From Actinomycetota bacterium (lineage in GTDB: Bacteria > Actinomycetota > Actinomycetes > Actinomycetales > Kineosporiaceae), in contig JACRAB010000277.1 of assembly GCA_016213575.1 (NCBI GenBank), positions 1 to 38,486 of the forward strand: DNA of 38,486 nt. Reading direction: 5' to 3'. Under the pieces are notes generated by a model, which was not told where the DNA came from, searched no databases, and saw only the letters and a list, made by a program, of their open reading frames with translations. Shown piece by piece: positions 3,296 to 23,101 of this stretch. Numbering within the stretch: the stretch's first letter is position 1; every line of letters begins with the position of its first letter. Both the position numbers and the translations under genes were made by a program.

Positions 3296-3312
3296 TTTAA
3301 CTAGGAGGTCGC

Positions 3313-4789: not shown

Positions 4790-6928
4790 ATGCCCAGCAA
4801 TCCCAGGCACGACGTCCTCTTCGAGCCGATCAGCATCGGGCCGAAGGTCGCGCGCAACCGGTTCTGGCAGCCGCCGCAGTGCAACGGTGCCGGCACCGAG
4901 AGCCCCGGCTTCAACGCCCAGCACCGGGGGATGAAGGCCGAGGGCGGCTTCGGCGTCGTCTTCACCGAGCTCATCGACATCGCGCCGGAGTGCGCCTGCG
5001 ACCCCTACGTGCTGCCGGACCTGTGGGACGACGACGACGTCCTCAACCTACGTCTGGCCACGGACGCCATCCACGCCGGTGGCGCGCTGGCCGGGGCGGA
5101 GCTCGGGTACTACAAGGTCACCGGCGGCAACCCGATGTCGCGCAAGGCCGCGTTCGGGGTCACCCAGACCAACAGCGACTGGGTCACCGTCCAGCACGGG
5201 GCCTCGCACAAGCAGTTCGAGGCGGAGGACGTCGACGAGATCGTCCGGATCCACGCCGACGCCGTCCGTAGGTCCATCGCCGCCGGTTACGACCTGGTGT
5301 CGCTGCAGATGGCGCACGCGGCGACGATCGCCATCCGTTCCCTCATGCGCTACTACAACAAGCGGACCGACGAGTACGGCGGGTCGTTCGAGAACCGCAT
5401 CCGCCTCACCCGCCAGATCCTCACGGGGATGCGGGAGGCCGCGGACGGCAAGGTTGCCCTCGGCTGCCGGTTCCACGTCAACACCCTCGACTTCCCCTTC
5501 GGCCTCGGGCCGGACGGGATCACCCGCGAGGAGGGGTACGCGACCCTCGAGGCACTCGACGACCTCGTCGACTTCTGGGACCTCACCGTGGGCGGCGGCG
5601 CGTGGGGCGAGGACGCCGGCTCGTCGCGCACGCACCGCGAGAACCACCAGGCGGAGTACATCAGGGGAGTCAAGGACCACACGACCAAGCCCGTCGCCAA
5701 CGTCGGCCGCTTCACCAACCCCGACACGATGGTGGACGCGATCCGCTCCAACCAGTGCGACTTCATCGCCATGGCACGGCCGTCGATCTCCGACCCGTTC
5801 CTGCCGAAGAAGATCGACGAGGGGCGCCTCGAGGACATCCGCGAGTGCATCGGCTGCAACATCTGCGCCTCGACCTGGGAGCGCGGGGTCAGGATCGTCT
5901 GCACCCAGAACGCCACCGCCGGCGAGGAGTTCCGCCGCGGCTGGCACCCGGAGCTGTTCACCCGTGCAACGAACAGCGAGCAGAGCGTCCTGGTCGTGGG
6001 GGCGGGGCCGGCCGGGATGGAGTGCGCCCGCGTCCTCGGCGAGCGCGGCATGGCCAACGTGCACCTCGTCGACGCCGGCGACGACCTCGGCGGCTCCCTG
6101 CGCTGGATCTCCAAGCTGCCGGGCCGCGGCGAGTGGGGCCGGGTCATCGACTACCGCAAGATCCAGCTGGGCAAGCTCAAGAACGTCCAGGTCATCCTCA
6201 AGACGACGATGACCGCCCAGGACGTCCTCGAGTACGGCGCCGACCTGGTCGTCATCGCGACCGGCTCGAGCTGGGACGCCGAGGGCGTGAGCTGGTACAG
6301 CCAGAGCCCCCTGCCGCTCACGGACGAGGCGCGCGCTCGCGTGCTCACGCCGGAGGACATCATGGTCAAGGAGGTGACTCCCGGCCAGCGGGTCGTGCTC
6401 TTCGACGCGGACAACTACTACATGGGTCACGGTCTCGCCGAGAAGCTCGCGAAGGCCGGGCACTCGGTGACCATGGTGACCGAGTCCGACACCATCGCCT
6501 CGTTCACGGCCTTCACGCTGGAGCACCCGCGTGTCCTGGCGGACCTGCGCAACGCGGGCGTGGAGATGATCGTCCGTGCGGAGGTCTCCGAGGTCGGCGA
6601 CGGTCGGATGACGCTGGCTCACGGGATCAACGGCGAGGAGCGGGTCCTCGACTTCGACAGCCTCGTCGTGGTCTCGCAGCGCTGGTCGAACAACGCGCTC
6701 TACCAGGAGCTGCGTCGGATGCCCGACGCGCTGGCGTCGAACGAGGTCAGCGGGCTGTACCTCATCGGCGACGCGGAGGCGCCGGCGCTCATCGCCGACG
6801 CCGTGTTCTCGGGCCACCGTCTCGCGCGGGAGATCGACTCGCCCAACCCGGCCGAGCCGCTGCCCTTCATCCGCGAGCGGCGCGTCGTGGGGCGCGGCGA
6901 CGAGGCGTACAAGCTGCCGGCCAGGTGA
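4790..6928 (+). CDS. Trimethylamine dehydrogenase-like FMN/4Fe-4S flavoprotein
   Basis: A 712-residue iron-sulfur flavoprotein matching trimethylamine dehydrogenase (TMADH) end to end: an FMN-binding TIM barrel (1-350), a 4Fe-4S motif C353-x2-C356-x2-C359-x11-C371, and a C-terminal dinucleotide-binding region (GAGPAG at 404-409). C31 (PPQCNGAG) aligns with TMADH Cys30, which carries 6-S-cysteinyl FMN, so covalent flavin is predicted. From memory of the TMADH sequence, catalytic Arg222, His172 and Asp267 correspond to R227, H176 and D275, and bowl Trp264 and Trp355 to W272 and W363. Tyr60 and Tyr169 are replaced by L61 and Q173. It probably oxidises a C-N bond of an amine, releasing an aldehyde and passing electrons to ETF, but probably not TMA itself. 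The predicted operator upstream places it in the TetR regulon. Confidence 0.93.
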   Translation: MPSNPRHDVLFEPISIGPKVARNRFWQPPQCNGAGTESPGFNAQHRGMKAEGGFGVVFTELIDIAPECACDPYVLPDLWDDDDVLNLRLATDAIHAGGALAGAELGYYKVTGGNPMSRKAAFGVTQTNSDWVTVQHGASHKQFEAEDVDEIVRIHADAVRRSIAAGYDLVSLQMAHAATIAIRSLMRYYNKRTDEYGGSFENRIRLTRQILTGMREAADGKVALGCRFHVNTLDFPFGLGPDGITREEGYATLEALDDLVDFWDLTVGGGAWGEDAGSSRTHRENHQAEYIRGVKDHTTKPVANVGRFTNPDTMVDAIRSNQCDFIAMARPSISDPFLPKKIDEGRLEDIRECIGCNICASTWERGVRIVCTQNATAGEEFRRGWHPELFTRATNSEQSVLVVGAGPAGMECARVLGERGMANVHLVDAGDDLGGSLRWISKLPGRGEWGRVIDYRKIQLGKLKNVQVILKTTMTAQDVLEYGADLVVIATGSSWDAEGVSWYSQSPLPLTDEARARVLTPEDIMVKEVTPGQRVVLFDADNYYMGHGLAEKLAKAGHSVTMVTESDTIASFTAFTLEHPRVLADLRNAGVEMIVRAEVSEVGDGRMTLAHGINGEERVLDFDSLVVVSQRWSNNALYQELRRMPDALASNEVSGLYLIGDAEAPALIADAVFSGHRLAREIDSPNPAEPLPFIRERRVVGRGDEAYKLPAR

Positions 6929-7043: not shown

Positions 7044-7706
7044 TCAGACCGCGACGGCGATCTCGGCGACGTCGGCCGGCACCTCGATCGGTGCGCCGGA
7101 CGCGGCGAGGACGTCGTCCGTCGTGACGCCGGGGGCGACCTCGCGCAGGACGAAGCCGGACGGCGCGACGTCGAGGACCGCGAGGTCGGTGATGACCCGG
7201 TCGACGACGCCGCTGCCGGTGAGCGGCAGCGAGCACCGGTCGAGGACCTTGTGGGTGCCGTCCCTGGCGACGTGCTCCATGAGGACGACGACCCGCTTCG
7301 CGCCGTGGACGAGGTCCATCGCGCCGCCCATGCCCTTGACCATCTTCCCGGGGATCATCCAGTTCGCGATGTCGCCACCCGACGACACCTGCATCGCGCC
7401 GAGGATCGCGGCGTCGACCTTGCCGCCGCGGATCATCCCGAACGACGTCGCGGAGTCGAAGAACGACGCCCCGGGCCGCAGCGTGACGGTCTCCTTGCCG
7501 GCGTTGATGAGGTCCGGGTCCTCCTCGCCCTCGAACGGGTAGGCCCCGAAGCCGAGGATGCCGTTCTCGGACTGCAGGACGAGCTCGACCCCCTCGGGCA
7601 CGTAGTTCGGCACGAGGGTCGGCAGGCCGATGCCGAGGTTGACGTACGAGCCGTCGGACAGCTCCGCGGCGGCCCGGGCCGCCATCTGCTCACGGGTGAG
7701 CGCCAT
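7044..7706 (-). CDS. scoB: 3-oxoacid CoA-transferase subunit B
   Basis: Beta subunit of a succinyl-CoA:3-ketoacid-type CoA-transferase, which moves CoA from a donor (typically succinyl-CoA) to acetoacetate or another 3-oxo acid. The 220 residues include the GIGLPT glycine loop (about 25-30) and SENGILG with E47, the expected covalent catalytic glutamate. [10 protein letters not shown] and the C-terminal APSGFVL block are also family hallmarks. It begins 1 bp after the scoA stop, so the two are translationally coupled. In context it would activate acetoacetate released by the BKACE encoded upstream in the same direction, feeding thiolysis to acetyl-CoA. Substrate range is not certain. Confidence 0.95.
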
Positions 7707-7707: not shown

Positions 7708-8517
7708 TCAGGCCTCCTGGCCGGTCGCGGTGGGACGGGGACGCACGGTGCGCTTCTCGATCTTCTTGTCGGCGGCCTGTTCCGGGGTCAGCGGGACGAT
7801 CCGCTGCACGTAGATCCCCGGCAGGTGGACGGCGTCCGCGTCGAGCTCGCCGGGCTCGACGAGCTCCTCGACCTCGGCGATCGCGACCCGGGCGGCCATC
7901 GCGGTGAGCGGGTTGAAGTTGCGGGCGCTCTCGTGGAAGACGAGGTTGCCGTGCCGGTCGCCCTTCCAGGCCCGGACCAGCCCGAAGTCGGTGACGATCG
8001 CGTGCTCCAGCACGAAGGCCTTCTCGACCGTTCCACCAGCACCGTCCGCGTTGGCGAACGGGCGGGTCTCCTTCGCCGGCGACGCGACGAGCACGGACCC
8101 GTCGGCGGCGTACCGCCACGGCAGCCCGCCGTCGGCGACCTGGGTGCCGACGCCGGTCGCGGTGTAGAACGCCGGGATGCCCGAGCCGCCGGCGCGCAGC
8201 CGCTCGGCGAGGGTGCCCTGCGGGGTCAGCTCGACCTCGAGCTCGCCGTCGAGGTACTGCCGGGCGAACTCCTTGTTCTCCCCGACGTACGAGGCGACGA
8301 CGCGGCGGATCCGGCCGGCGCCGAGCAGGATGCCCAGCCCCGCGCCGTCCACGCCGCAGTTGTTCGAGACGACCTCGAGGTCCTTGGCGCCCTGCTCGTG
8401 GAGCGCCGCGATGAGGACCGACGGGATCCCGCAGAGGCCGAAGCCCCCCACCGCCAGCGACGACCCGTCGCCGATGTCGGCGACCGCTGCCGCCGCGTCC
8501 CGGACCAGCTTGTCCAT
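7708..8517 (-). CDS. scoA: 3-oxoacid CoA-transferase subunit A
   Basis: Alpha subunit of the same CoA-transferase, 269 residues. It shows the subunit A signature GGFGLCGIP near residue 25, the [11 protein letters not shown] block at about 52, YVGENKEF, and [18 protein letters not shown]. Alone it is not catalytic; it pairs with ScoB to form the active enzyme. There are 110 bp between the preceding SDR stop (8628) and this ATG, with no clear hairpin, so read-through from the BKACE operon is likely, although a separate promoter cannot be excluded. Pairing a BKACE with ScoAB is functionally sensible because BKACE enzymes release acetoacetate. Confidence 0.95.
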
Positions 8518-8627: not shown

Positions 8628-9416
8628 TCAGGCTGGTCGGTAGTAGCCGGCCGTCGCGCCTCCGTCGATGGCGTAGACCAGACCGTTGGTGTACGACGCC
8701 TCCTCGCTGAGCAGGTGGGCGACGGCGCGCGCGACCTCGTCCGGCATGGCGAAGCGTCCCAGGGGGACACTCGCCCGGTAGAAGTCCGCCTCGCCCTCCG
8801 GCGAGTCCTGGAAGATCCGTTGCGCCATGGGGGTCTCGACGAACGCCGGAGCGACGGCGTTGGACCGCACCCCGTGCGGGCCGAAGTCCAGGGCGAGGCA
8901 GCGCACGAGCCCGACGACCGCGTGCTTGGACGCCGTGTAGGCGGAGTACCCCTGGGCGCCGGTGGTCCCGGCGTCCGAGGCGACGGCGACGAACGCTCCA
9001 CGGGTGTCGATCAGCGACGCCATCGTGGCCTTGGCGACGTTGAAGACGCCGGTGGCGTTGACGTCGAGCGCCCGCTGCCACTCCTCGGGGGCGAGGTCGA
9101 GGACCGACCCGAGCACCTCGATCCCCGCGCAGGCCGCGACACCCGCGAGCCGGCCGTACATCGACTCGGCCCGCCCGACGACGTCACGCAGACCCTGCAG
9201 GTCCGTCACGTCACACGGGGTGGCGAGCACCTGGGCGCCGGCTGCGGCCAGGGTGGCCGCCGCCGCCTCGACGCCCGCGCTGTCACGGTCGACGAGTGTC
9301 ACGGCGCGGCCGTCGCGGGCGAGCCGGGTGGCCACGGCGAGACCGATGCCGGAGGCGGCGCCGGTGACGAGGGCCGGCCCGGGACCGGGGTCCGGGCTCG
9401 TGCCGTCCGTGCTCAT
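8628..9416 (-). CDS. SDR family oxidoreductase
   Basis: Classical SDR of 262 residues starting MSTDG; the longer ORF start is ignored because this ATG overlaps the upstream BKACE stop as ATGA. Motifs: TGAASGIG for NAD(P), a variant ACAG where NNAG is usual, YTASK for the catalytic Tyr/Lys, and a C-terminal DGGATAGYY. Likely a 3-hydroxyacid or alcohol dehydrogenase. It sits between the BKACE gene and scoAB in a tightly spaced operon, so a role in making a beta-keto acid for BKACE or in reducing a product is plausible. It is one of three SDRs in the regulon. Confidence 0.92.
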   Translation of the reverse strand: MSTDGTSPDPGPGPALVTGAASGIGLAVATRLARDGRAVTLVDRDSAGVEAAAATLAAAGAQVLATPCDVTDLQGLRDVVGRAESMYGRLAGVAACAGIEVLGSVLDLAPEEWQRALDVNATGVFNVAKATMASLIDTRGAFVAVASDAGTTGAQGYSAYTASKHAVVGLVRCLALDFGPHGVRSNAVAPAFVETPMAQRIFQDSPEGEADFYRASVPLGRFAMPDEVARAVAHLLSEEASYTNGLVYAIDGGATAGYYRPA

Positions 9417-10432
9417 GCTGTCTGCACCTGACGGACCCCGAGACCCAACAGCTGGCGGTACTCGGCGGGGGTGGCGATGGGGCGTCCGAGGGCGTCGGCG
9501 ATCGAGTGCGCGAGCCGCAGCGCTTCGGCGTTGGACTCGAGGCGGTCCTCGCGGTGCGGCCACTTGAAGTACGTGTCCTCCATCCCGACGCGGACGTGGA
9601 CGCCGAGGGTGGCGGCGAGGGTGGCCAGGTGCATGGAGGCCCGGCCTGCGGCCGAGACGAGGATGATGCCGTTGGGGTCGACGTCGCGGATGAGTCCGAT
9701 GTTGCGGGTCAGGCCCTCGACCATCTGGCGGGGGTTGTCCATCGGGGAGCAGCCCGGGAGCGCCGGCAGGATCACCCAGACCGCGCCTGGTGCCACCAGG
9801 CCGCTGCGCAGCAGGTAGCGGTCGGCGTTGGAGACGTCGGCGTCGGTGTATACGGCGATCTCGGGCTTGGCGCCGGACTCGACGATGAGGCGGGTCTTCT
9901 CAAGCAGGATCGGGGTCGGCTTCACGAACAGGGAGTCGCCGATGTACGTCGCCGTGGAGTTGACCGGGGCGGCGTCGAGCAGCCCGGAGTCCAGCACGCG
10001 CCTCATCTCGTCCCACTCGCCGTCGAGCGCGGGCACCAGGCAGCCGTCGACGACCAGGTCGGGGTACTCGGCGTGCAGCGGCTCGATGACCTGGGCGAAG
10101 CGCTCCAGGGACAGCGTGTTGTAGCCGTTGTCGTCGCGGACGTGGATGTGGACGGTGCTGGCACCCGCCTCGACGACGGAGCGCGCAGCGTCGAGGATCT
10201 CCTGGGTGGTGACGGGCTGCCCAGGGTTCTGAGACTTCTGGAAGAACGCGCCGGTGATGGTGACGGAGACGGCGAGCCGGTCGGGCAGGTCCCACGCCTC
10301 GGAGATCGGGGCGTCGTGGTAGGCCGTGTTCTCCAGGTCGAGGATCGTCGGCAGACCGTAAGGCCGCCAGATCATCTTCTGGCGCTCGCGCTCGACACCC
10401 TTGCGGACGCGGTCCCAGTCGATCGTGGTCAT
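9413..10432 (-). CDS. Beta-keto acid cleavage enzyme (BKACE, DUF849 family)
   Basis: Metal-dependent TIM-barrel enzyme related to 3-keto-5-aminohexanoate cleavage enzyme (Kce). Such enzymes react a beta-keto acid with acetyl-CoA to give acetoacetate and a new acyl-CoA. The 339 residues include TITGAF and the metal-binding H95-x-H97 in VHIHVRD, plus the late VGMEDT acid. Compared with Kce it has an N-terminal extension of about 50 residues, and the usual glycine-rich strand after the barrel's second metal segment reads DGCLVPALDG, so it is a divergent subgroup. The start at 10432 overlaps the upstream SDR stop (ATGA) and its own stop overlaps the next SDR start, giving two coupled junctions. 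The reported BKACE range includes aminated and quaternary-ammonium keto acids such as dehydrocarnitine; the actual substrate here is unknown. Confidence 0.9.
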   Translation of the reverse strand: MTTIDWDRVRKGVERERQKMIWRPYGLPTILDLENTAYHDAPISEAWDLPDRLAVSVTITGAFFQKSQNPGQPVTTQEILDAARSVVEAGASTVHIHVRDDNGYNTLSLERFAQVIEPLHAEYPDLVVDGCLVPALDGEWDEMRRVLDSGLLDAAPVNSTATYIGDSLFVKPTPILLEKTRLIVESGAKPEIAVYTDADVSNADRYLLRSGLVAPGAVWVILPALPGCSPMDNPRQMVEGLTRNIGLIRDVDPNGIILVSAAGRASMHLATLAATLGVHVRVGMEDTYFKWPHREDRLESNAEALRLAHSIADALGRPIATPAEYRQLLGLGVRQVQTA

Positions 10433-11271
10433 GAGGTGGACTCCTTGTGGTCGGTGGGGGTGTGTTCTCCGAGGCCGGGTTCCCAGGTGGGTTCGTTGAA
10501 GGTGTGCCGGCGCTGCCGCATCCACTGCGGCTGGCCGTACAGCGACTGGCCGCCGTCGACGCCGAGAGTCGCTCCGCTCACCCAGGCAGCGTCGGCGGAG
10601 GCGAGGAACGCGACTGCGGCAGCGATGTCCTGTGGCGCCCCCAGGCGTCGCAGGGGGGTGCGGTCGACGAGGTCGTCACGGACGCCGGGTGCGGCGAGCA
10701 TCCCGTGGGTCATTCCGGTCTCGACGACGCCGGGCAGGACGGCGTTGACGCGGATGCCGTGGACGCCGAGCTCGGCGGCCATCGAGCGGGTCAGGTCGAG
10801 CAGGGCGCTCTTGGTGACGCAGTAGGGGCCGACCTGGTCGGCATGGGTGAGCGCAAGGCTGGAGGAGATGACGACCAGGCTGCCGCCGCGGCCGGCCTCG
10901 GCCATCCGTCGGGCCGCGGCCTGCAGCACGTGGAAGGTGCCGACGAGGTTGACCGAGACGTGCCGCTCGAACGTCCTGGCATCCAGGTCGAGCCAGCTGC
11001 CGAACTTGGCGTACCCGGCGTTCGCGACGACGACGTCCAGAGGTCCGTGCTGCGAGGTCAGGGCGAGCAGCGCCTCGTCGACTGCGGTGCGCTCGGTCTG
11101 GTCGGCGACCGTCCAAGCCCGGAAGGGACCGAGGTCGGCGGGGGCTGGCGCCCGGTCCAGGCCGACCACGGTGTAGCCGTCGGCATGGAGCCGGTCGGCG
11201 ATGCCACGCCCCAGTTCTCCGGCGGCGCCCGTGACCAAGGCGACGCCGGCCCCACCGGTCGCGCGGGTCAC
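10429..11271 (-). CDS. SDR family oxidoreductase
   Basis: Short-chain dehydrogenase of 280 residues with TGAAGELGRG at about 15-24, ANAGYAKF, the SSS active-site serine region, YCVTK as Y-x3-K and a DGGQSLYG tail. It is longer than a typical FabG by about 30 residues at the C-terminus (FNEPTWEPG region), which could cover the active site or aid oligomerisation. GTG start. Its TGA overlaps the BKACE ATG, so the two products are probably made together; that pairing suggests it oxidises a beta-hydroxy acid to the beta-keto acid that BKACE cleaves (inference). It lies 47 bp after the saccharopine-dehydrogenase-like gene. Confidence 0.92.
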   Translation of the reverse strand: MTRATGGAGVALVTGAAGELGRGIADRLHADGYTVVGLDRAPAPADLGPFRAWTVADQTERTAVDEALLALTSQHGPLDVVVANAGYAKFGSWLDLDARTFERHVSVNLVGTFHVLQAAARRMAEAGRGGSLVVISSSLALTHADQVGPYCVTKSALLDLTRSMAAELGVHGIRVNAVLPGVVETGMTHGMLAAPGVRDDLVDRTPLRRLGAPQDIAAAVAFLASADAAWVSGATLGVDGGQSLYGQPQWMRQRRHTFNEPTWEPGLGEHTPTDHKESTS

Positions 11272-11318: not shown

Positions 11319-12503
11319 TCAGGCCTGCGCTCGGGCCGGCGCGGCGATGAGGTCGCGGATGCGCACCCGTTCGGTGGCGACCCCGTTCTCGAGGCGGTGC
11401 AGCTGCAGTCCGCCGCCGCCGCGGCTGACGGTGCGCAGGCTGGCGAAGAAGTCGGCAGGCCGCAGGTGCTCTGGTGAGCGGATCCCGGGGTCGGCGAAGC
11501 GGCCGTCGGCGAGCAGCAGCAGCCCCGCGGCGGCCGGGATCCCGGTGGCCTCGGCCATCTCGGTCTCGGCGCCGGAGGAGTACCGCAACCCGTTGCCGTC
11601 GGTGTGGATGTCGATGACCAGGCCACTGCCGACGCGCCCGGTGTCAGGGCGGGAGTCGCGGTAGGCGGCGAAGACGTCGACGGCCTTGCCCGTGACGTCC
11701 TCGAGCGCGTCGCCGCCCTCGTGGCGGTCCGGGGCGACGGCGTAGGCCAGGCTCCAGGCGACGCGCATGGCGTCGTCCGGGGTGATCGACCCGTAGTTGC
11801 GGCTGTTTTTCACCGGCAGGAACCGCGGCACGGTGAGGGGCTCGGGGTGGGCCAGGCGGACGACCTCCCGCGGCCCGACGCTGCCCGGGAAGTCGATCAC
11901 GACACGGTCCAGGTCGTCCCACGAGGGAACGGGGTGGCTGGTGCCATCGGCGTCCACGAGGTTGAAGCAGTGCCAGAAGTGCCGGACCGCGGCAGGGGTC
12001 ATGTCGCCGATGTCGACGGTCCAGTAGATGTCGACGGAGTCGGCCTGGCCGAGGTAGTCCACGGCGGCGCGAATGAGGACGTTCGTCGTCCCCGGGGAGG
12101 AGCCCATGCCCACCAGGGCGGTGATGCCGGCATTCCGGGCCTGCTCGTCGTACCCGAGCAGACCGAGGACGGCGTCGGCGTCGTCGCAGATGTCGAGGTA
12201 GTCCGTTCCCGCGGCGATGGCGGCGGTCAGGACCGCTGAACCGGTGCGGTAGTAGGGACCCGCGAGGTTCGCAACCACCCGCGCGTCGGCCAGGATCGAG
12301 GCGAGCCGGTCCGGTTCCTCGAACAGGTCCAGGGTCTGGCGCGGCATGCCGAGAGCATCCAGGGCCGCGGCCGCCTCCGGGCGCCAAGCCCGGTCCAGGG
12401 CCAGCCACGACGTGAGCGGTGTGGCTCGGGCGGCACCTTCGATCATCGCCTGCGCCTGGGAGCCACCGGCCCCGATCACGACAACGTCCCACTGACGACT
12501 CAT
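11319..12503 (-). CDS. Saccharopine dehydrogenase-like oxidoreductase (second copy)
   Basis: A 394-residue paralogue of the 3313-4470 product. It opens with the Rossmann stretch VVVIGAGGSQAQ and carries the same GSSPGTTNVLIRAAVDYL block at the start of the second domain. I chose MSRQW at 12503 rather than the longer ORF because it has GGAGAAG upstream and directly precedes the Rossmann fold. It is the first well-supported gene of the BKACE/CoA-transferase operon. The family forms or cleaves C-N bonds in opine-like compounds or acts as an oxidoreductase; with a TMADH-like enzyme nearby, handling of an amine or imine intermediate is reasonable. Reaction not assignable. Confidence 0.86.
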   Translation of the reverse strand: MSRQWDVVVIGAGGSQAQAMIEGAARATPLTSWLALDRAWRPEAAAALDALGMPRQTLDLFEEPDRLASILADARVVANLAGPYYRTGSAVLTAAIAAGTDYLDICDDADAVLGLLGYDEQARNAGITALVGMGSSPGTTNVLIRAAVDYLGQADSVDIYWTVDIGDMTPAAVRHFWHCFNLVDADGTSHPVPSWDDLDRVVIDFPGSVGPREVVRLAHPEPLTVPRFLPVKNSRNYGSITPDDAMRVAWSLAYAVAPDRHEGGDALEDVTGKAVDVFAAYRDSRPDTGRVGSGLVIDIHTDGNGLRYSSGAETEMAEATGIPAAAGLLLLADGRFADPGIRSPEHLRPADFFASLRTVSRGGGGLQLHRLENGVATERVRIRDLIAAPARAQA

Positions 12504-12835
12504 GTGAGGTCTTCTCCCTGTGCGGTCGCGGATGGCGGGTGCTGGATGTTCGACGGTTCGAGGTGCGTCGCGAGGCGGGTCGCGAGGCCACGGCGCTCGA
12601 ACTCGCCGCTGGCTGTGCGGGCAGCCGTGTGCAACGCACAGAGGCGTTCGTGGCCCACGGCATCCGGCGACGCGGGGACGAGGGGCATGGCTGCACCGGC
12701 GCGGTCGGCGCGGCAGGCGCGCGGTCGACGACCGGCGCGGCAGGGCCCTCCCGAGCGTCGGGCAGGAACGGCCTCGCACCGCTCCCCAGGCTCCCTAGCC
12801 CCGACAAGGGTGACTCGCGCCACGACCACCTCCAT
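12500..12835 (-). CDS. Possible small operon-leader protein, 111 aa
   Basis: An uninterrupted ORF begins at an ATG only about 9 nt after the predicted transcription start of the operon promoter (TTGACG at 12879-12874) and ends with a TGA that overlaps the ATG of the saccharopine-dehydrogenase-like gene (ATGA). G/C at third codon positions is high. The protein is Arg/Ala-rich with no recognisable domain, membrane segment or signal peptide, and chance ORFs are common in such DNA. A shorter version from the internal Met at 12688 is also possible. If not coding, this is a 330-nt 5' leader. Confidence 0.3.
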   Translation of the reverse strand: MEVVVARVTLVGAREPGERCEAVPARRSGGPCRAGRRPRACRADRAGAAMPLVPASPDAVGHERLCALHTAARTASGEFERRGLATRLATHLEPSNIQHPPSATAQGEDLT

Positions 12836-12879
12836 AAATGAACGTTCATAAACGTGGCAGGAAGTCGCGGTATCGTCAA
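12835..12879 (-). promoter_or_regulatory. Promoter and TetR operator of BKACE operon
   Basis: On the minus strand TTGACG (12879-12874) is followed after exactly 21 nt by TTTATGAACGTTCATTTA, whose core ATGAACGTTCAT (12838-12849) is a perfect 12-bp palindrome. The -10 (CACGTT at 17-nt spacing) is weak. The same TTGACG-21 nt-TTTATGAACGTTC layout recurs upstream of the hydrolase gene (15697-15741), which suggests one regulator controls both. Confidence 0.7.
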
Positions 12880-12932
12880 CCCCATGCAGCCTGGGATCTC
12901 ACCCAAGACAGCCGGGCCGCTTGTCTCCACCT

Positions 12933-12955
12933 ACGTTAACGTGCGTTAATTAACC
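12933..12955. promoter_or_regulatory. Palindromic operator upstream of second TetR gene
   Basis: TTAACG-TG-CGTTAA (12936-12949) is a perfect inverted repeat, overlapped by the palindrome ACGTTAACGT and followed by TTAATTAA. It lies about 125 bp before the TetR start at 13075 and about 85 bp from the BKACE-operon operator. It may be an autoregulatory site of the TetR protein, with a sequence somewhat different from the GAACGTTC sites. Confidence 0.5.
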
Positions 12956-13074
12956 AGGCAATGCTCGATCCACGTCGATAGAGACCCGGCTGCACACCCC
13001 GACGCCCGCCACCGCGAGGACAGCCGGCGGTGGCCGTGATTCCATCGGCTCAGGACAGGGAGGGCCGACCGGGC

Positions 13075-13719
13075 ATGGCAGCAAGTACGCAGACACGCAC
13101 GCACGACACCGCCACAGCTCGGCGGTCCGACACGAGGGACCGGCTCCTCGCGGTCGCCATCGAGATGTTCGGCAGCCGTGGGTACGACTCCACCAGTCTT
13201 CGCGACATCGCCTCCGCCGTAGGCATCAAGCCGCCGGCGGTGTACAACCACTTCGAGTCCAAGGAACAGCTGCTCGGCGAGGCGGTTTCATGGATGATCG
13301 CCGACTTCATGACCTGCGTGGTCACGCCGGACGATCCGACCGCGGACGCCATGGTCCGCCTGCGCGGGCTGATGACTCGTCACGTGCACTATCAGCTCGA
13401 GAAGGGCGCCCTGGCCCGCGCGAACGACCTCATGATGGAGTCCGAGGCCCTGCGGCACACCATGCCCGAGGACGCAGCAGCACGCGTCCGGCGAGACATG
13501 CGCAGCTACATCGACCTGCTCACGGATCTGGTCGCCCAGGTGCGCGCCAAGGGTGGCGCAGGTCGGAAGGCCACCTCCGCGAGAGTCGTGGCGTTCGGGA
13601 TCGTCAGCATGTGCGACCGGGTCCAGACCTGGTGGCGACCAGACGGTCCGATGACGCCGACCCAGATCGCTGACGAGTTCTGGGCGTTCGCTGCGGAGGG
13701 CCTAGGAGTGCAGGCCTGA
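13075..13719 (+). CDS. TetR family transcriptional regulator
   Basis: A 214-residue TetR repressor from the ATG at 13075; an in-frame GTG at 13030 would add 15 residues, but AGGGAGGG favours the later start. The helix-turn-helix is TSLRDIASAVGIKPPAVYNHFESKEQL, very typical of the TetR_N domain, followed by a helical C-terminal domain rich in Met and Arg. It resembles the first TetR protein, including the late CxxVxTWxxPDGP block (CDRVQTWWRPDGP here, CEYVHTWFNPDGP there), so the two may sense related ligands. Divergent from the BKACE operon, with two palindromes between them. Likely represses that operon and the hydrolase at 14434-15381. Confidence 0.93.
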   Translation: MAASTQTRTHDTATARRSDTRDRLLAVAIEMFGSRGYDSTSLRDIASAVGIKPPAVYNHFESKEQLLGEAVSWMIADFMTCVVTPDDPTADAMVRLRGLMTRHVHYQLEKGALARANDLMMESEALRHTMPEDAAARVRRDMRSYIDLLTDLVAQVRAKGGAGRKATSARVVAFGIVSMCDRVQTWWRPDGPMTPTQIADEFWAFAAEGLGVQA

Positions 13720-13819
13720 CACCTGCCGGGCACGCGGAGTCTGAAGCGAACACCCCAGCGCCCTGACCTCACGGGCCCAGCCGGCACGGCGATGCATGCC
13801 GCCCTTGCGCAGAGGTCGC

Positions 13820-14236
13820 CTACCTCGAGGCGTCCACGAAGCGGTAGGCCAGCTCTCCGCGACTCAGGCATCCCGCATGGGCGTCCGAGAGGGTCAGCGC
13901 CAGAACCAGCTCCGTCGGCGTCGCGCTGTCGACAGCCACCGCCACGACCACCGGGCTCGAGGACAGCACAGGGCGGATCACGTGCACGGAGCTTCGGGCC
14001 AGCTCCAACTTCTCCCCGTCGCGAACGAACGGACTGGCCGTGAGTCCGTTCGCGGAGATCGCCGCGTGAGCGGCCTGCAAGAACCACCCCAGGATGTGAC
14101 GACTGTCGACGGGACCGAGGCGACCGAACTCGGGCTTGCGCGGCGACACGACGAACTCGAAGGGCCAGCCATCGTTCCCTAGCGCGAGCACAGCCGACCG
14201 GTCGGTCGGAGATGGCTGGGAGATGTCGTTCTCCAT
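13820..14236 (-). CDS. Hypothetical protein, 138 aa
   Basis: Not recognised. The start at 14236 is chosen because GGGAGGA stands 8 nt upstream; the ORF track shows it only as the tail of a longer spurious ORF. The protein is soluble-looking and opens with MENDISQPS. A central region (WFLQAAHAAISANGL) is followed by an alternating hydrophobic stretch (PVVVAVAVDSATPTELVLALTL) that looks like beta strands rather than a membrane helix. No Cys clusters or catalytic motif. It is convergent with tetR (100 bp gap) and lies 197 bp downstream of the alpha/beta hydrolase in the same direction, so it may be cotranscribed with it. Confidence 0.6.
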   Translation of the reverse strand: MENDISQPSPTDRSAVLALGNDGWPFEFVVSPRKPEFGRLGPVDSRHILGWFLQAAHAAISANGLTASPFVRDGEKLELARSSVHVIRPVLSSSPVVVAVAVDSATPTELVLALTLSDAHAGCLSRGELAYRFVDASR

Positions 14237-14433
14237 GGAACTGATCCTCCCGCAACCGTGCCCGCCAAGCCATGACCGCTCGGCCCTTGCACGACGTCGC
14301 GCCCTGGGCGTCCGGACTTGATGACGACTGGGCCATTGCGGGCCCCGGCGGACCCTCCCTCCAGGTGACACGACAGCAGGGCAGGATGCATCTGTCGTAC
14401 CTGCCTGAGCACGACGAGGCCGATCGTCGTCCG

Positions 14434-15381
14434 TCACCGAAAGGCCGCAGCTTCGCTTTCCGAGCTCCGTAGTCCGAGGTGCCTGCCGAGGAACGCAAGC
14501 TGGACGTGGATGACCCCGTCGAACGCCTTGCCGTAGGCGTCGAAGTGCCCGCCCTCGAACAGATGCAGCTCCTTGGGCTCGAGCGCCGATTCGAAACTCT
14601 CCACGGCCAGGCGCGTCGGGGTCACCCAGTCCTCGGTGGCTACGCACATCAGAAGCGGGGTAGGTGAGATCAGGCGCACGTAGGCACCGGGCAGGTACTC
14701 GGAGAAGCGCTCGGCGCTGCGCAGAGTGCACTGGTTCACAAACGCCGGCGCCCCTGCGGCCGAGGTCTCGCTGAACCAGGCCCACGCGTCGGGAGTCGGC
14801 AGGACTGCAGGAGCGGTGGGATCGGGGTCGACGACCTTGACGCGACGCGGCGGGTGACCGGCAGCCCGCGACCTCCGGTCGGCCTCGAACGATCGCTTCG
14901 CACGACCGACGCGGTCAGCGCGGACCATGTGCCTGAAGTTCGCATCAACGTTGACGACAGGGACCTGCGCCAGAACGCACTTGACCCGACGGTCCTGCGC
15001 TCCGACGACGAGGACGTGGCCTCCCGAATAGCTGGATCCCCACACGGCCACCCTGTCAGCGTCGACGCCCGGCAGGGCTTCGGCGAATGTGATGGCGTTG
15101 CGCATGTCGTCGACCTGCTGCCACGGGTTGAGGTCACCGCGCGGTTCGCCGTCCGAGGCACCCAGGCCGCGATTGTCGTAGCACAGCACGTGGCAGCCGG
15201 CCGAGGCGAAGGCCTCGGCGTACCTGTCGAGACACATCTCCTTCACGGCCGCGAACCCGTGGCACATGACAACGATGGGGGCTCGAGCCTGCAAGCCGGC
15301 GGGCGCATAGTGCCATCCGCGCAGCGTCACGCCGTCGGAATCGAACTCCACATCGTCACGCCTGTGCGGCATGCCCGTCAC
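14434..15381 (-). CDS. Alpha/beta hydrolase
   Basis: Serine hydrolase of about 315 residues with the oxyanion-hole region VMCHGFAAVKE, DNRGLGASDGEPRG, nucleophile elbow GSSYSGG, an acid in VATEDWVTP and a late catalytic His in EGGHFDAYG. Close in organisation to dienelactone hydrolase/X-Pro dipeptidyl-peptidase-like alpha/beta hydrolases of unknown substrate. Of several starts I prefer the GTG at 15381, with GGAGG 5 nt away; GTG 15399 and ATG 15372 are alternatives. A TetR-type promoter/operator lies about 320 bp upstream, with the same layout as that of the BKACE operon. It could hydrolyse an ester, amide or lactone form of the growth substrate, but this is inference. Confidence 0.88.
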   Translation of the reverse strand: MTGMPHRRDDVEFDSDGVTLRGWHYAPAGLQARAPIVVMCHGFAAVKEMCLDRYAEAFASAGCHVLCYDNRGLGASDGEPRGDLNPWQQVDDMRNAITFAEALPGVDADRVAVWGSSYSGGHVLVVGAQDRRVKCVLAQVPVVNVDANFRHMVRADRVGRAKRSFEADRRSRAAGHPPRRVKVVDPDPTAPAVLPTPDAWAWFSETSAAGAPAFVNQCTLRSAERFSEYLPGAYVRLISPTPLLMCVATEDWVTPTRLAVESFESALEPKELHLFEGGHFDAYGKAFDGVIHVQLAFLGRHLGLRSSESEAAAFR

Positions 15382-15696
15382 CGTGGCCTCCTTCGGCACC
15401 CGATGCCCGCAGGAGCATGTCGTGCGACCGCTCCTTCGGGCGACGCCTGCTTCAGCACCTCACCGACCTCCATGTTCGGCAACGCCTTGGCAGGGCGAAC
15501 TGATGGGCATCCCGCGATCTCGCGATGCACCGCCTGGCAGACGGACGAGCGGGCGGCCGACGAACTCCCGACTGACCCGCGGTTGCGGCCAACCGGAGTT
15601 TCCTTGCGCCAACGAACTGGGAACACCGCCCTGCCCGTTCAGTGATCCAGACCGCGCCGACGCCACGACCACGATTCACGCCGCACGATTCCTGAA

Positions 15697-15741
15697 TTAA
15701 CGAACGTTCATAAATGTACGGGCAGCGCCGAGGTTCGTCAA
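15697..15741 (-). promoter_or_regulatory. Promoter and TetR operator upstream of alpha/beta hydrolase
   Basis: On the minus strand TTGACG (15741-15736) and TACATT (17-nt spacing) form a good promoter, and TTTATGAACGTTCGTTAA (15714-15697) overlaps its start region. Distance from TTGACG to TTTATGAACGTTC is 21 nt, identical to the BKACE operon promoter. The rest of the 599-bp gap 15382-15980 shows only short ORFs without support, so the hydrolase mRNA probably has a long leader. Confidence 0.65.
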
Positions 15742-15980
15742 GGACGGGCTCGAGCCACCGTGCCCGGGTCATTCGTTTCGCTCTCAGCAAGAAGGTCGAC
15801 GGCACGGCGGGCAACGGTGTGGCGGGTCACCGGGGCGCCTGACGCTCAGCCGGCCACACCGATCACCCCAAACCCCACCACCCCATGGACTCACGACCTT
15901 CGAGAGAGACCTTCGAGGTGGGGGACGAGTCCCCGGCGATGCCGGACGCGAGCACGGACCCCGTCGAGGCCGCTGTGGCG

Positions 15981-17042
15981 TCAGGCCCCCGTGGCGCGGT
16001 AGGTCGGCGCGGGCAGGTCGAGGACCGTGGACCTGACGAGGCGCCACGCCAGGTAGGCGATCCCGAGGCGGACCTTTCCCATGCCGTCATAGGGGTCGAA
16101 GCCGAGCGCGGCGGTGATCGTGTCGAGGCGGGCCTGCATCGTGCTGTGGTGGATCGAGAGGGCACGGGCCGCCTGCCGCGCGGACCCGGACGTGATGACC
16201 GCATCGAGAGTGTCCTGCCCCCAGGTCTGGGCGGTCACCTGCTCGATGAGGCCCAGGTCCGGGTACTGCGCGTCCGCAGGTGCATCGGCGAAGATGTCGA
16301 CCAGACCCGGGTAGTCCTCCGCAGTCACACGGGGCGTCTTGGGTGGGCGGCTCAGCCGCAGCGCCACCAGGCTCGTGCGGAACGAGTGGTGAAGGAGTTC
16401 CGGCTGGGTCGCGCTGCCGATCCCGCACGGGCTCGCCCGGACGTCGTCGACGGGCGCCTCCGCCGGGACGACGAGTGCGTGGATCGGCCCGTACCGCGTG
16501 GGGACGACGTCCTCGGGGCCCTGCGGCCGTCCTGTCCAGACGGCGAACAGGGGTGCTGCGGCGACCCTGTAGCGGCCGCCGGGAGCGAGTCCCAGGGCCG
16601 CGGCGGCGAGCCTGCGGTCCTCCGCCGGGACCGTCTGGTCGAGCAGCAGCCCCAGGTCGCGCCGGTTGTCGTCGCCGCTGCGGCCGCGGCCGTGGCGGAT
16701 CCGGACGGCGAGGGCGAGACGCTCGAGGATGATGGCGTCGTTGGCGCCCGGCTCGCCCTCCCTCTCGAGCCACACGACGAGGCCGTCGGACGCCTCCGCC
16801 CCGGTCCGGCGAACGGGCTCCCCGACGGCCTGTTCTCCCGCAGGTGTCACCCGTAGCACCCGGTGCGGGCGGTCCTGCTCGAACCCGGCGACACAGCCGG
16901 CCAACGAAGCAGCCGCGCTGAGCAGCGCACGGGTGTTGACGTTCCCGACCACGAGCTCGTCGAAGCACGCGATGACCCGCAGCCCGAGGCTCGCGGTCGG
17001 GTCGAGTCGGGAGATCCGGCCCAGCAGTTCCTGCACCGTCAC
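15981..17042 (-). CDS. PucR family transcriptional regulator
   Basis: A 353-residue regulator whose C-terminus carries the PucR-type helix-turn-helix: ARALSIHHSTMQARLDTI followed by LGFDPYDGMGKVRLGIAYLAWRL (about 290-335). The preceding region is a divergent, GGDEF-like middle domain as in CdaR/PucR proteins, with no recognisable N-terminal GAF or purine-sensing domain. It is the third gene in the same direction after the serine hydrolase and HSL hydrolase, 63 bp from the latter, so it probably regulates that pair. No operator is obvious. PucR/CdaR proteins are often activators responding to a small catabolic substrate. Confidence 0.85.
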   Translation of the reverse strand: MTVQELLGRISRLDPTASLGLRVIACFDELVVGNVNTRALLSAAASLAGCVAGFEQDRPHRVLRVTPAGEQAVGEPVRRTGAEASDGLVVWLEREGEPGANDAIILERLALAVRIRHGRGRSGDDNRRDLGLLLDQTVPAEDRRLAAAALGLAPGGRYRVAAAPLFAVWTGRPQGPEDVVPTRYGPIHALVVPAEAPVDDVRASPCGIGSATQPELLHHSFRTSLVALRLSRPPKTPRVTAEDYPGLVDIFADAPADAQYPDLGLIEQVTAQTWGQDTLDAVITSGSARQAARALSIHHSTMQARLDTITAALGFDPYDGMGKVRLGIAYLAWRLVRSTVLDLPAPTYRATGA

Positions 17043-18141: not shown

Positions 18142-19314
18142 TCAGAGGGAGGCGTACAGGGCTTCCTCGAAGTCCCCGTACATCTTCCACGCCTGGTCCC
18201 TCGTGATGAAGGGCAGCGAGTTGGTGTAGATCGACGCGCAGATCCCCGTCGTCCTGTCGATGAAGAAGTGGGTGTTGAACAGGCCCGCCCAGGCGCCCGT
18301 GCCGGCGCGGCGACGTCCAGGGACGTCGGCGCTGTTGAGCAGCAGCCCGTACCCCCACTTGTAGCCCGGCCCGACCGACAGGGTGTCGGTGATCGGCGGG
18401 TCGGCCGTCGGGATCTCGGCCGGAACGTCGAGGTCGCCGATCTGGTTCGTGAACGCGGCGTCCACGGTGGCCTGGCCGAGGATCCGCTCGCCGTCGAGCT
18501 CGCCGCCCCGCAGGAGGGCACGCTCGAAGCGGATGTAGTCGCGGGGCGTCGAGTAGAGGCCGTGGCCGCCGGCCCACCACTCCGGCTGCTGGTTGAGGAG
18601 CTCGCCGGCCGACGTCCAGCCGCCGTCCTCACCGGGTACGTGGACGGTGACGGCGTTCTCCCGGCGAGCGTCGTCGAGCAGGAACATGGTGTCGTCCATG
18701 CGCAACGGGCCGGTGATGCCCTCCTTGACGACGACGTCCAGCCCCCGGCCGGTGACGGCCTCCACGACACGGCCCAGCCAGTCGGTGTTGATGCCGTACT
18801 CGAACCGGGTGCCGGGATCGGCCACGAGCGGCGCCTTCAGTGCCTCGAGGCGGCCGGGGACGACGTTCGGGAGTCCGGTGACCGCCTCGTACTTCACGAG
18901 ATCCGCGTTCCAGAACCAGTACGTCAGGCCGCTCGTGTGCGTGACGAGCTGCTTCACCGTGGCCCGGGAGGCCGGCGGGCGCAGGCGCGGCGTGTCACCG
19001 TCGAAGCCGTCCAGCACCTGCAGGTCGCCGAAGTCGGGACAGTACTGCTCGACCGGCGCGTCGAGGTCGAGCGCGCCGCTCTCCACCTGCTGCAGCGCGG
19101 CCGCGGTGACCACCATCTTGGTCATCGACATGATGCGGAACTGCGTGGCAGCAGTCACCGGGTCGTTCCCGCCGGCCACGCGGACGCCGGCCGCGCCCTC
19201 GTAGACCACGCCGTCCCGATCGGCGGCGATCGCCACCACGTGCGGCACCGCCCCGCCCTCCACAGCCTGCGCGAGCACGGTGTCGATCCTGCCCCCGTCG
19301 ATCTGCTGACCCAT
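18142..19314 (-). CDS. Beta-lactamase-family serine hydrolase
   Basis: A 390-residue class C beta-lactamase/DD-peptidase-fold hydrolase. It has the S-x-x-K nucleophile motif (SMTK, about residue 63), THTSGLTYW, and YGIN (Y-x-N) about 120 residues later. No secretion signal is present, so it is probably a cytoplasmic esterase (family VIII/EstB-like or 6-aminohexanoate-dimer-hydrolase-like) and not a resistance enzyme. It is the first gene of a minus-strand unit with the HSL hydrolase and PucR regulator. Upstream is an 807-bp gap containing an aldehyde dehydrogenase remnant. Substrate unknown; esters, lactones or amides are possible. Confidence 0.9.
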   Translation of the reverse strand: MGQQIDGGRIDTVLAQAVEGGAVPHVVAIAADRDGVVYEGAAGVRVAGGNDPVTAATQFRIMSMTKMVVTAAALQQVESGALDLDAPVEQYCPDFGDLQVLDGFDGDTPRLRPPASRATVKQLVTHTSGLTYWFWNADLVKYEAVTGLPNVVPGRLEALKAPLVADPGTRFEYGINTDWLGRVVEAVTGRGLDVVVKEGITGPLRMDDTMFLLDDARRENAVTVHVPGEDGGWTSAGELLNQQPEWWAGGHGLYSTPRDYIRFERALLRGGELDGERILGQATVDAAFTNQIGDLDVPAEIPTADPPITDTLSVGPGYKWGYGLLLNSADVPGRRRAGTGAWAGLFNTHFFIDRTTGICASIYTNSLPFITRDQAWKMYGDFEEALYASL

Positions 19315-20121: not shown

Positions 20122-20988
20122 TCAAGCGGTCTCCTCCTGGGCCCACTCGTCGCGTGTCACATCGCGTGACACCAACAGGACGCGACCTCCAGGCAGTTGT
20201 CGTGCCGCAACGTCACGCGCGTCCAGCACCCGCCCGGCGTCGTCGCGGAGTACTCCTCGCGCGCTCGTCTCGTCTTGTGTTCGCAAGGCCCGCAGGATCA
20301 GCTCGCCCAGCCAGAGGGCCGCCTCCGGACCGATCAACTCGTCCAGCCACCGGTCGGAGGCTAGGGCAGCTGAGATGCCGAGCGCATCGGCGGCGGTCTG
20401 GTTCACGAAGACCAGCCGGGCGCGAGCCGCCCTGGCCGCAGTGGCGTGACTGATCACCGCCAGGTCGTTGGCCGTTCCTCCGTCGGGGCGCACCACGACC
20501 ACCGCGTCGCTCAACGCATCGAGCACGGTTCTCAAGTCGTCGAGGGCTTCGCTGCGGGTGCGTAGCGTGTCTTCCAGAACGTGCTCGGCGACGACGTGTT
20601 CGGTGATGTCCCGCCAGGTGGACAGCAGATGGTCGTGGTCCAGGCGCACCACAAGCGAGTCCGTCAGCCCGGCGGCAGCGCTGCCAGAGAGTGTCGTTCG
20701 CAGGCGCTGCCGCTGGCCGGTCTGGGCGCACCGCCGGAACGCGTGGATCAGCTGCGCACTGCTGGGGCCGAGCGGTTCGGTCACGTCCGCACCGATGAGG
20801 TGGTCCGGGTCGGAGGTGAACGGCGCGGCACCGGATGCGTTGGTCAGCTCCAGGAGGAACGACTGCGGTCGCCCAGCAGCGTCGCGGACGACACGGTGAA
20901 CGTCGAACCCGTCCGGTGAGGCGTCCAGCGCTGAACGCAGCAGGTCCCAGGCGTCCAACCCGGTGCCGGCGGTGTCAGGGTCGGTCAT
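20122..20988 (-). CDS. PAS-domain protein without output domain
   Basis: A 288-residue protein starting MTDPD. An N-terminal PAS-like region (about 15-120, ending in the typical WRDITEHVVAEHVLEDTL exit) is joined by a coiled-coil linker (about 125-155) to a second PAS-like domain ending LVSRDVTRDEWAQ near the C-terminus. No GGDEF, EAL, kinase, phosphatase or HTH follows, and no membrane segment is present; the next sequence does not encode one in another frame. Its ATG overlaps the stop of the upstream serine hydrolase (ATGA), so it is coupled to the sugar-transport/esterase operon. It may be a ligand sensor acting with a separate partner, or a truncated signalling protein. Confidence 0.75.
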   Translation of the reverse strand: MTDPDTAGTGLDAWDLLRSALDASPDGFDVHRVVRDAAGRPQSFLLELTNASGAAPFTSDPDHLIGADVTEPLGPSSAQLIHAFRRCAQTGQRQRLRTTLSGSAAAGLTDSLVVRLDHDHLLSTWRDITEHVVAEHVLEDTLRTRSEALDDLRTVLDALSDAVVVVRPDGGTANDLAVISHATAARAARARLVFVNQTAADALGISAALASDRWLDELIGPEAALWLGELILRALRTQDETSARGVLRDDAGRVLDARDVAARQLPGGRVLLVSRDVTRDEWAQEETA

Positions 20989-22208
20989 CCGACGCTCCGA
21001 TCGGTGGGCGATGGTTCCGGCGTGCCAAGGCAACGTCCGAGAGCGCGGGTGAGCTCGTTGGCACGGTGATCAATCACCGGGCCCATCTGACAGCTCAGGT
21101 AGGCGAACCCCACGCCAAGGTCGGGATCCGCGAAGGCGAGCTGCCCACCGGCTCCATCGTGCCCGAAGCTACGCGGCCCGAGCATGGGCCGGCTGGGCGG
21201 CGAGGAGATCATGAACCCGGTGCCCCAGCGTTGCCCGAGGTCCGGGTCGCCCAGCAACATCTGTCCCCAGGATCGTGGGACGAGCGCGTCCTCGACGGAC
21301 TGCGGCGTGAGCAGGGCCGGCCCGTCGATGTCGCTGACGCAGCCTGCGTAGAGCCGGGCCATGGACGGCGCACTCGCGAAACCGTTGATGCCCGGCAGCT
21401 CCGCAGCTTGGAGCTGCGGATCGTTGAGGGTGACGACGCCGCTGTCGGTGGGGAACGGCAGTGCACTTCCCATGGTCATTGCGCGGTGCACGATCGCAGT
21501 CGACTGGACCTCGGCGGTCCGCCGGACCACCGCGCTGTCGTCGTCCGGCAGCGGAGCCTCCATCCACGCGACCGCGTCCCGGGCGTTCCAGGGAACTCCG
21601 ATCCAGACGTCGAGGCCACGCGGCGAGGCGACGCGCCGGCTGAAGAAGGTCCCGGGGAGGACACCCGTGACGCGGCGGACGACTTCACCGACGAGCCAGC
21701 CCAGGGTGACCGGGTGGTAGGAGTGCGCGGACCCGGGTGGCCACAGCGGGGTCTGCTGCTCCAGGGCCTGCACCGCGGGGAACCACGCGCACACCTCGTC
21801 GCGGGTCATCGGGCTTTCGACTGCGGGCAGCCCGGCTCGGTGCGCGAGCACCTCGCGCACGGTGACCCGGTCCTTGCCGTGGGCGGCGAACTCGGGCCAG
21901 TACCGCGCCACGGGGCGGTCGAGGTCCAGCAGGCCGTCCTGCACCAGCAGGTACGCGATCAGCGCCAGCAGGCCCTTGGAGCAGGAGAACAGCGCCGCGG
22001 CGGTGCCGTGCTGCCACGGTCGGGATGACCTTGAGTCCTGCTCGCCAGCCCATACGTCGACCACGGCACGTCCGTCCACGAAGACCGTGCAGCCTGCGCC
22101 GCGGTCGCCGCGCAGCCGGAAGTTGTCGACGAAGGCGTCGACGACGGCTCCGAAGCCGTCCTCCGCGCCACCGTGGACCTCTGGCAGGTCGGAGTCCTGC
22201 GCAGGCAT
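20985..22208 (-). CDS. Beta-lactamase-family serine hydrolase (EstB-like)
   Basis: A 407-residue class C beta-lactamase-fold hydrolase with nucleophile motif SCSK (FSCSKGLL, about residue 80), Y-x-x-V-T-L-G (SYHPVTLGWL), and a late HDGAGG in place of the KTG motif. This combination is typical of family VIII carboxylesterases and LACTB-like proteins and not of true beta-lactamases. No signal peptide. The start MPAQD at 22208 overlaps the upstream HSL hydrolase stop (ATGA), and its own stop overlaps the PAS gene start. It shares an operon with a LacI-regulated carbohydrate ABC transporter, so a role in deacylating or opening an imported ester or lactone is plausible. Confidence 0.92.
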   Translation of the reverse strand: MPAQDSDLPEVHGGAEDGFGAVVDAFVDNFRLRGDRGAGCTVFVDGRAVVDVWAGEQDSRSSRPWQHGTAAALFSCSKGLLALIAYLLVQDGLLDLDRPVARYWPEFAAHGKDRVTVREVLAHRAGLPAVESPMTRDEVCAWFPAVQALEQQTPLWPPGSAHSYHPVTLGWLVGEVVRRVTGVLPGTFFSRRVASPRGLDVWIGVPWNARDAVAWMEAPLPDDDSAVVRRTAEVQSTAIVHRAMTMGSALPFPTDSGVVTLNDPQLQAAELPGINGFASAPSMARLYAGCVSDIDGPALLTPQSVEDALVPRSWGQMLLGDPDLGQRWGTGFMISSPPSRPMLGPRSFGHDGAGGQLAFADPDLGVGFAYLSCQMGPVIDHRANELTRALGRCLGTPEPSPTDRSVG

Positions 22209-23101
22209 CAGGCGAGGTGGCGGCGCAGGAAGTCGGCGATGCGTCGCCAGGCCTCGCGTGCCTGATCGGGTGGGCCGATGTGGGTGAAGCCGTGCTGACA
22301 TCCGGTGAACATGACGTGCTCGGTCGGCACGCCGGCCTGCTCCAGCATCTTCGCGTAGCGGTCGGCCTCGGCGCGCAGGATGTCGAGCTCGGCGGTGATG
22401 ACCAGGGCGGGGGGAAGCCCCGTCAGGTCCGTCGCGCACACCGGTGACACCAGAGGGTTGCTGCGTTCGGCCGCATCGGGCACGTACCAGTTGTCGAACT
22501 TCTCCGCGCTCGCCAGGAGGAACGCCAGGAGCTCGGGTGGGATGGACGGGTCCGGGTTCGGCTTGGCGGACGGGCTGGTGACGAGATCCATGGGTGGGTA
22601 GTCAAGGATCTGGCCGCGGAGGGCGACACCGCCCCGCTCGGCGTTGAGCAGGCAGACGGCAGCGCTGAGGTTGCCCCCGGCGCTGTGCCCACCGATCACC
22701 ATCCGGGTCGCGTCCAGGCCGTACCCGGCACCGTGCTCGGTCAGCCACACCAGCAGGGCGTGGACCTGTTCGACAGCGCCTGGGAAAGGGTGTTCAGGCG
22801 CCAGGACGTAGTCCATGTTGACGACCGCGCATCCTGCCTGGTCCGCGAGCAGCCGGCAGTACGGATCGTCCGCCTCCCAGTGGCCGAGCACGAACCCGCC
22901 GCCGTGCAGGTTCACGTACACCGGATGGGGAGCAGCGACACCCGCGGGCCGGTAGAGCATCAGGTCCGTCACCGGCGCCTGGTGCAGGGCAATGGTCTCG
23001 AAGGTGCCGTACGACAGGTCGGTCAGGGCCGGCGGAAAGTCTGCAGCTTGTGCACGTGCACGCTCGCGGAACTCAGCGACCTCGACAGCAGGGATACTCA
23101 T
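22208..23101 (-). CDS. HSL-type alpha/beta hydrolase (esterase)
   Basis: A 297-residue carboxylesterase of the hormone-sensitive-lipase group, with the canonical oxyanion motif LHGGGFVLG (about 70-78), the nucleophile in GGHSAGGN, an acid in ITAELDILRAEAD and a catalytic His in CQHGFTH. Start MSIPA at 23101 with AAGGAA upstream; the ORF-track start 9 codons earlier is less likely. It lies 77 bp after the permease gene and overlaps the next serine hydrolase by ATGA. With the neighbouring transporter it may hydrolyse an ester or glycoside-linked acyl group after import (inference). Confidence 0.92.
   Translation of the reverse strand: MSIPAVEVAEFRERARAQAADFPPALTDLSYGTFETIALHQAPVTDLMLYRPAGVAAPHPVYVNLHGGGFVLGHWEADDPYCRLLADQAGCAVVNMDYVLAPEHPFPGAVEQVHALLVWLTEHGAGYGLDATRMVIGGHSAGGNLSAAVCLLNAERGGVALRGQILDYPPMDLVTSPSAKPNPDPSIPPELLAFLLASAEKFDNWYVPDAAERSNPLVSPVCATDLTGLPPALVITAELDILRAEADRYAKMLEQAGVPTEHVMFTGCQHGFTHIGPPDQAREAWRRIADFLRRHLA

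Follow-up and report, generated by a model that had tools for sequence, protein, structure and literature searches.

An alpha/beta hydrolase gene in the window analysed here (the whole stretch of 38,486 nucleotides) is preceded by a promoter-like sequence whose layout recurs in front of an operon encoding a beta-keto acid cleavage enzyme (BKACE). This raises the questions of whether the two promoters are under selected co-regulation, which regulator would exert it, and whether the hydrolase belongs to the BKACE pathway, as the original prediction had proposed from a conserved layout with unrelated spacers.

The shared promoter pattern

The pattern TTGACG-N21-TTTATGAACGTTC was found exactly at two places in the window, 12840-12879 and 15702-15741, both on the minus strand, as originally described. 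Across the 566 contigs of the own genome (5.9 Mb), a search allowing up to three mismatches recovered only these two sites, a looser version of the pattern returned the same two matches and no more, and the reversed control pattern had none. With no matches in 100 dinucleotide shuffles of the window and no third copy in 5.9 Mb, chance resemblance of promoter-like sequence, for which only the general abundance of short motifs speaks, has practically no probability, and the composite was confirmed as real and non-random.

The claim of unrelated spacers stood only in part, because the 21 nt do not separate a -35 from a -10 element and the layout had to be read anew: both promoters have TTGACGA at the 5' end of the pattern and AC[AG]TTTATGAACGTTC at its 3' end, while the 15 nt between these blocks are indeed unrelated, as are the flanks. 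The only 12-mers in common were those in the operator described below and in one short motif of the leaders. If one promoter had recently been duplicated, without selection on co-regulation, this would account for the exactness of the two shared blocks but not for the unrelated 15 nt and flanks; moreover, rhizobia have the same layout and can hardly have copied it from this genome. As no extended identity was detected between the two regions or their flanks, duplication was rejected as very improbable.

Promoter elements and leaders

A sigma-70 consensus scan of positions 12400-16000 detected a single promoter-like site, TTGACG-17-TACATT at 15741-15713, which places the -35 element of the hydrolase promoter at 15736-15741 (also recovered by pattern search) and its -10 element, 17 nt away, at 15713-15718, both on the minus strand. 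In the BKACE-operon promoter, TTGACG lies at 12874-12879 (minus strand, pattern search), and a weak -10 element, CACGTT at 12856-12851, was recognised by reading at the offset equivalent to that of TACATT, also 17 nt from its -35 element and under the threshold of the sigma-70 scan. TTTATG at 21 nt was rejected as -10 element, since this spacing is too long and the 17-nt pair fits instead, and the promoter elements thus needed re-assignment. Judged by its sequence, TTTATGAACGTTC is not a promoter box but the larger part of a putative 18-bp operator dyad, namely TTTATGAACGTTCATTTA at 12852-12835 and TTTATGAACGTTCGTTAA at 15714-15697. Both dyads overlap the -10/+1 region of their promoters, as expected for the palindromic operator of a TetR-controlled promoter, and the dyad centre would lie near the transcription start, which is predicted at about 15706 for the hydrolase gene and about 12844 for the BKACE operon. 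The 21-nt layout holds as a distance from the -35 element to the operator, constant from TTGACG to the TTTATG motif presumably because the operator has a fixed position with respect to the promoter, and does not hold as a spacing of promoter boxes.

Both leaders are about 315-330 nt long. A structured or riboswitch leader was rejected, as Rfam yielded no match and the z-scores for folding were 0.83 and -0.02. A 111-aa leader frame (12500-12835, minus strand), which starts at the edge of the operator and whose end overlaps the 12503 start as ATGA, was likewise rejected as a gene, with no Pfam match, no plasmid homolog and an atypical codon-position GC. The 12-mer GTGGTCGTGGCG occurs in both leaders (12818-12829 and 15661-15672) at differing distances to the operator; by a rough estimate, this would arise by chance with a probability of about 3%.

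Genes behind the two promoters

The start codons named earlier (GTG 15381, ATG 12503 and ATG 13075) are plausible. The hydrolase gene (14434-15381, minus strand) encodes 315 aa from its GTG start and is UilS/GrgF-like by sequence. The first gene of the BKACE operon, with its start at 12503, is saccharopine-dehydrogenase-like (11319-12503), and BKACE itself comes third: an SDR oxidoreductase gene (10429-11271) is followed by the BKACE gene (about 9413-10432, with homology starting near 10432 and an open frame to 10525), a further SDR oxidoreductase gene with approximate start (8628-9400) and the genes for CoA transferase subunits A (7708-8517) and B (7044-7706), all on the minus strand. The BKACE domain PF05853 (DUF849) was detected with E=1.6e-46, and the protein scored below every specific NCBIfam BKACE cut-off. 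Elsewhere in the window, the product of 4790-6928 is of the OYE type by profile, and close in sequence to the trimethylamine dehydrogenase and histamine dehydrogenase of known structure (phmmer E 1.7e-185), and beta-lactamase-fold esterase-like genes are present at 18142-19314 and 20985-22439, the first of which resembles the methyl acetate hydrolase AcmB (326 bits vs a cut-off of 550).

Operator-like sites in the genome

The genome was scanned with the 18-bp palindromic consensus TTWAYGAACGTTCRTWAA, and the best matches in the own genome were six places of the window: the candidate operators of the BKACE-operon promoter (TAAATGAACGTTCATAAA, 12835-12852) and of the hydrolase promoter (TTAACGAACGTTCATAAA, 15697-15714); the operator-like site TTATCGAATGTTCATTAA at 2383-2400, upstream of an SDR gene (1591-2343, minus strand); two overlapping operator-like sites (4604/4618, spanning 4604-4635) upstream of the trimethylamine-dehydrogenase-like gene 4790-6928; one at 3282-3299, between a TetR-family gene (T1, 2461-3186, minus strand) and a second saccharopine-dehydrogenase-like gene (3313-4470, plus strand); and a weaker candidate, TTAACGTGCGTTAATTAA at 12936-12953, upstream of the TetR-family gene starting at 13075 (T2), where it may serve autoregulation. 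No operator matches were found in shuffled windows. The genes around the operator-like sites encode ALDH, SDR, T1, a saccharopine-dehydrogenase-like protein, the trimethylamine/histamine-dehydrogenase-like protein and CoA transferase A/B, and further two SDRs, BKACE, another saccharopine-dehydrogenase-like protein, T2 and the alpha/beta hydrolase.

Other good matches were located on contig C541 of the same genome (2572-2589 and 7388-7405), in front of the genes for an amino-acid permease and for a dimethylglycine/sarcosine-dehydrogenase-like protein. This contig also holds genes for ETF beta/alpha and an AMP-ligase, and its sites probably belong to the same regulon as those of the window. In the 5.9 Mb genome the operator is thus nearly confined to this locus and one functionally linked contig. 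The core TGAACGTTCA has two occurrences in the own genome; a perfect TGAACGTTCA at C139:13015, within an ORF and without AT-rich arms, was taken as chance. The exact operator core was absent from 394 other genomes of the class, and a literature search for the core or for a BKACE TetR operator returned nothing relevant.

The candidate repressor

T2 (13075-13719, plus strand) combines a TetR_N helix-turn-helix (PF00440, E=1.6e-16, over the gathering score) with a C-terminal TetR_C_24 domain (PF17932, E=1.1e-16) and falls in no named equivalog (SACE_7040, FasR, MftR and others), the best score being 75 bits vs a cut-off of 250. A scan of bacterial genomes detected no close relatives of T2, only HTH-level ones, which then served to compare operators. 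The reading heads of T2 and of the TetR of the rhizobial clusters described below are nearly alike (VGIK.PAVYNH), that of T1 being LDISAPALYWY; over the 50-residue DNA-binding region, the TetR of a Rhizobium cluster (L205) shares about 72% identity with T2 and about 44% with T1, as counted from pairwise alignments. In other phyla, TetRs whose recognition helix resembles that of T2 are closely preceded by CTAACGAACGTTAGTTAG-type dyads (TAAC-GAACGTT-type palindromes). Distant TetRs with such heads, among them those of Bacillota and Deltaproteobacteria, show dyads of the type CTAACGAACG(T/G)TAGTTAG directly in front of their genes. When upstream dyads were compared with the loci's own flanks, p<=0.05 was reached at 17 of 105 loci, about 5 being expected. 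Owing to the match of its reading head with the rhizobial TetR and to the dyads of T2-like TetRs, T2 appears as the likeliest repressor of both promoters.

T1, which likewise carries TetR_C_24, could instead control both promoters, or could do so together with T2 by cross-talk, as master of the window. It is a paralog of T2 (about 36% identical), lies like T2 divergent from a saccharopine-dehydrogenase-like gene, and has operator-like sites flanking its divergon and nearby genes. However, most of these sites combine the half-site TTAATGA with GAGCG or GAATG as core, whereas the two promoters share TTTATGAACGTTC; furthermore, T1-like TetRs elsewhere are accompanied by TTAGCGAGCGCT-type dyads, and the rhizobial reading head is much nearer to T2. 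Control of both promoters by T1 is hence considered unlikely, while T1 may possibly act at the sites adjacent to the T1 gene.

Related clusters in other bacteria

Plasmid clusters in Rhizobium and Sinorhizobium (NZ_CP099402.1, NZ_CP144207.1, NZ_CP013052.1 and NZ_CP013536.1 were compared) contain BKACE, CoA transferase, two saccharopine-dehydrogenase-like genes and the TetR with the near-identical reading head. Orthologs of the 11319-12503 product on Rhizobium, Sinorhizobium and Sphingobium plasmids are 57-58% identical to it, BKACE of the rhizobial clusters is 43-44% and that of Sphingobium 66% identical to the window protein, and the single cluster TetR of Rhizobium and Sphingobium is 40-42% identical to T2. 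Each rhizobial cluster (31-35 kb) holds 5-7 operator matches vs a shuffled mean of 0.7-1.4, and none occurred in 49 kb of one cluster plasmid taken as a control; in the Sphingobium cluster, operator matches were weak or missing.

Most of the rhizobial operators follow TTGAC[AGT] at a distance of 18-22 nt: TTGACG-N21 or N22 precedes the first saccharopine-dehydrogenase-like gene in three clusters (L205, L207 and L208), the permease promoter has TTGACA or TTGACT-N22 to the operator, and the promoter of the ALDH run has TTGACT-N18. As these operators sit in promoters in the same manner, the promoter layout is a regulon feature of distant bacteria. An operator-like site was also observed upstream of a methyl-accepting chemotaxis protein gene (L205, 23536-23553; L204, 25774-25791), which suggests that chemotaxis to the substrate may be part of the rhizobial regulon. 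Footprinting of the two promoters in close relatives was impossible, because the genus relatives checked are without the leading saccharopine-dehydrogenase-like gene of the BKACE operon.

In four rhizobial clusters, an operator-driven gene run (ALDH - kinase - saccharopine-DH - SDR - FAD oxidoreductase - SurE - SDR - SDR - ETF) ends with an alpha/beta hydrolase gene of the window family, whose products are 45-47% identical to the window hydrolase. Since these clusters share pathway genes, operators, their placement and the hydrolase family with the window, co-regulation is well supported, and the selection on it that had been proposed is further borne out by the near-confinement of the operator to the locus and by the similar dyads of T2-like TetRs.

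The place of the hydrolase in the pathway is supported less directly. The shared operator might have captured the hydrolase gene without a shared pathway, or the hydrolase might serve detoxification or ester uptake, since its family is large (thousands of plasmid records) and its paralogs in the genus sit among unrelated genes. Paralogs in the genus at 52% identity are without the operator, which speaks against the regulon reading. In the hydrolase tree, the window gene did not group with the rhizobial cluster hydrolases and was not placed as their ortholog; either a true orthology is therefore hidden, or recruitment from this family took place on two occasions. Against this, hydrolases of the same family are found within BKACE clusters of Rhizobium, Sinorhizobium and Agrobacterium and near a Streptomyces BKACE, so that a hydrolase unconnected to the pathway seems doubtful. 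The pathway membership originally proposed is supported by the operator-driven rhizobial runs and limited by the tree.

Discussion

Taken together, both promoters quite probably form one local TetR-type regulon with T2 as the most likely repressor, in which the hydrolase gene and the BKACE operon would be switched together. Each promoter consists of TTGACG, 17 nt, the -10 element and an 18-bp TTWAYGAACGTTCRTWAA operator overlapping the -10 end and centred on the predicted start. We infer repression and not activation: a dimeric TetR, most likely the 13075-13719 product, would occupy the operator and block RNA polymerase, and a ligand derived from the pathway would release it. The operon for saccharopine-dehydrogenase-like protein, SDR, BKACE, SDR and CoA transferase and the hydrolase gene would then be turned on together.

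With regard to the substrate, BKACE has been linked to 3-dehydrocarnitine, and in Pseudomonas operons convert carnitine via 3-dehydrocarnitine to betainyl-CoA (PMC12482172). BKACE, the trimethylamine-dehydrogenase-like protein and the C541 genes suggest a carnitine-like or N-methyl amine chemistry. Tentatively, the window, C541 and the rhizobial and Sphingobium clusters could represent a single pathway, not described so far, for the catabolism of a nitrogenous plant or soil compound, perhaps N-methylated or opine-like, in which paired saccharopine-dehydrogenase-like enzymes, BKACE, CoA transferase and the hydrolase spread between distant bacteria along with the TetR and its operator grammar. 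In this way, one pattern leads to a testable regulon that would comprise a TetR, an operator of 18 bp and two or more target promoters, together with similar operators throughout a BKACE pathway that is uncharacterised. As the operator grammar is common to this genome and to rhizobial plasmids, it could be used to list pathway members and so to narrow the range of substrates.

Like local repressors of the TetR/AcrR type, T2 combines an N-terminal HTH with a C-terminal ligand domain (PF00440 and PF17932), a divergent operon as its putative target, a candidate palindromic operator (about 18 bp) that covers the promoter and a likely autoregulatory site; the literature searched held no TetR with this exact operator sequence, and the window differs in carrying two paralogous TetRs. 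Compared with the carnitine BKACE operons (PMC12482172), BKACE is likewise combined with CoA transferase and dehydrogenases, and genes for N-methyl-amine oxidation (trimethylamine-dehydrogenase-like and dimethylglycine-dehydrogenase-like) are found nearby, whereas the two saccharopine-dehydrogenase-like genes and the alpha/beta hydrolase set the window apart. With the rhizobial BKACE clusters, the window shares saccharopine-dehydrogenase-like proteins, BKACE, TetR, CoA transferase, SDRs, ETF, the hydrolase family and the operator family. The rhizobial clusters have one TetR in contrast to two in the window, and possess in addition an APH-like kinase, SurE and a chemotaxis receptor; their leaders are short and their hydrolase gene closes a long gene run, whereas in the window the leaders are long and the hydrolase gene has a promoter of its own.
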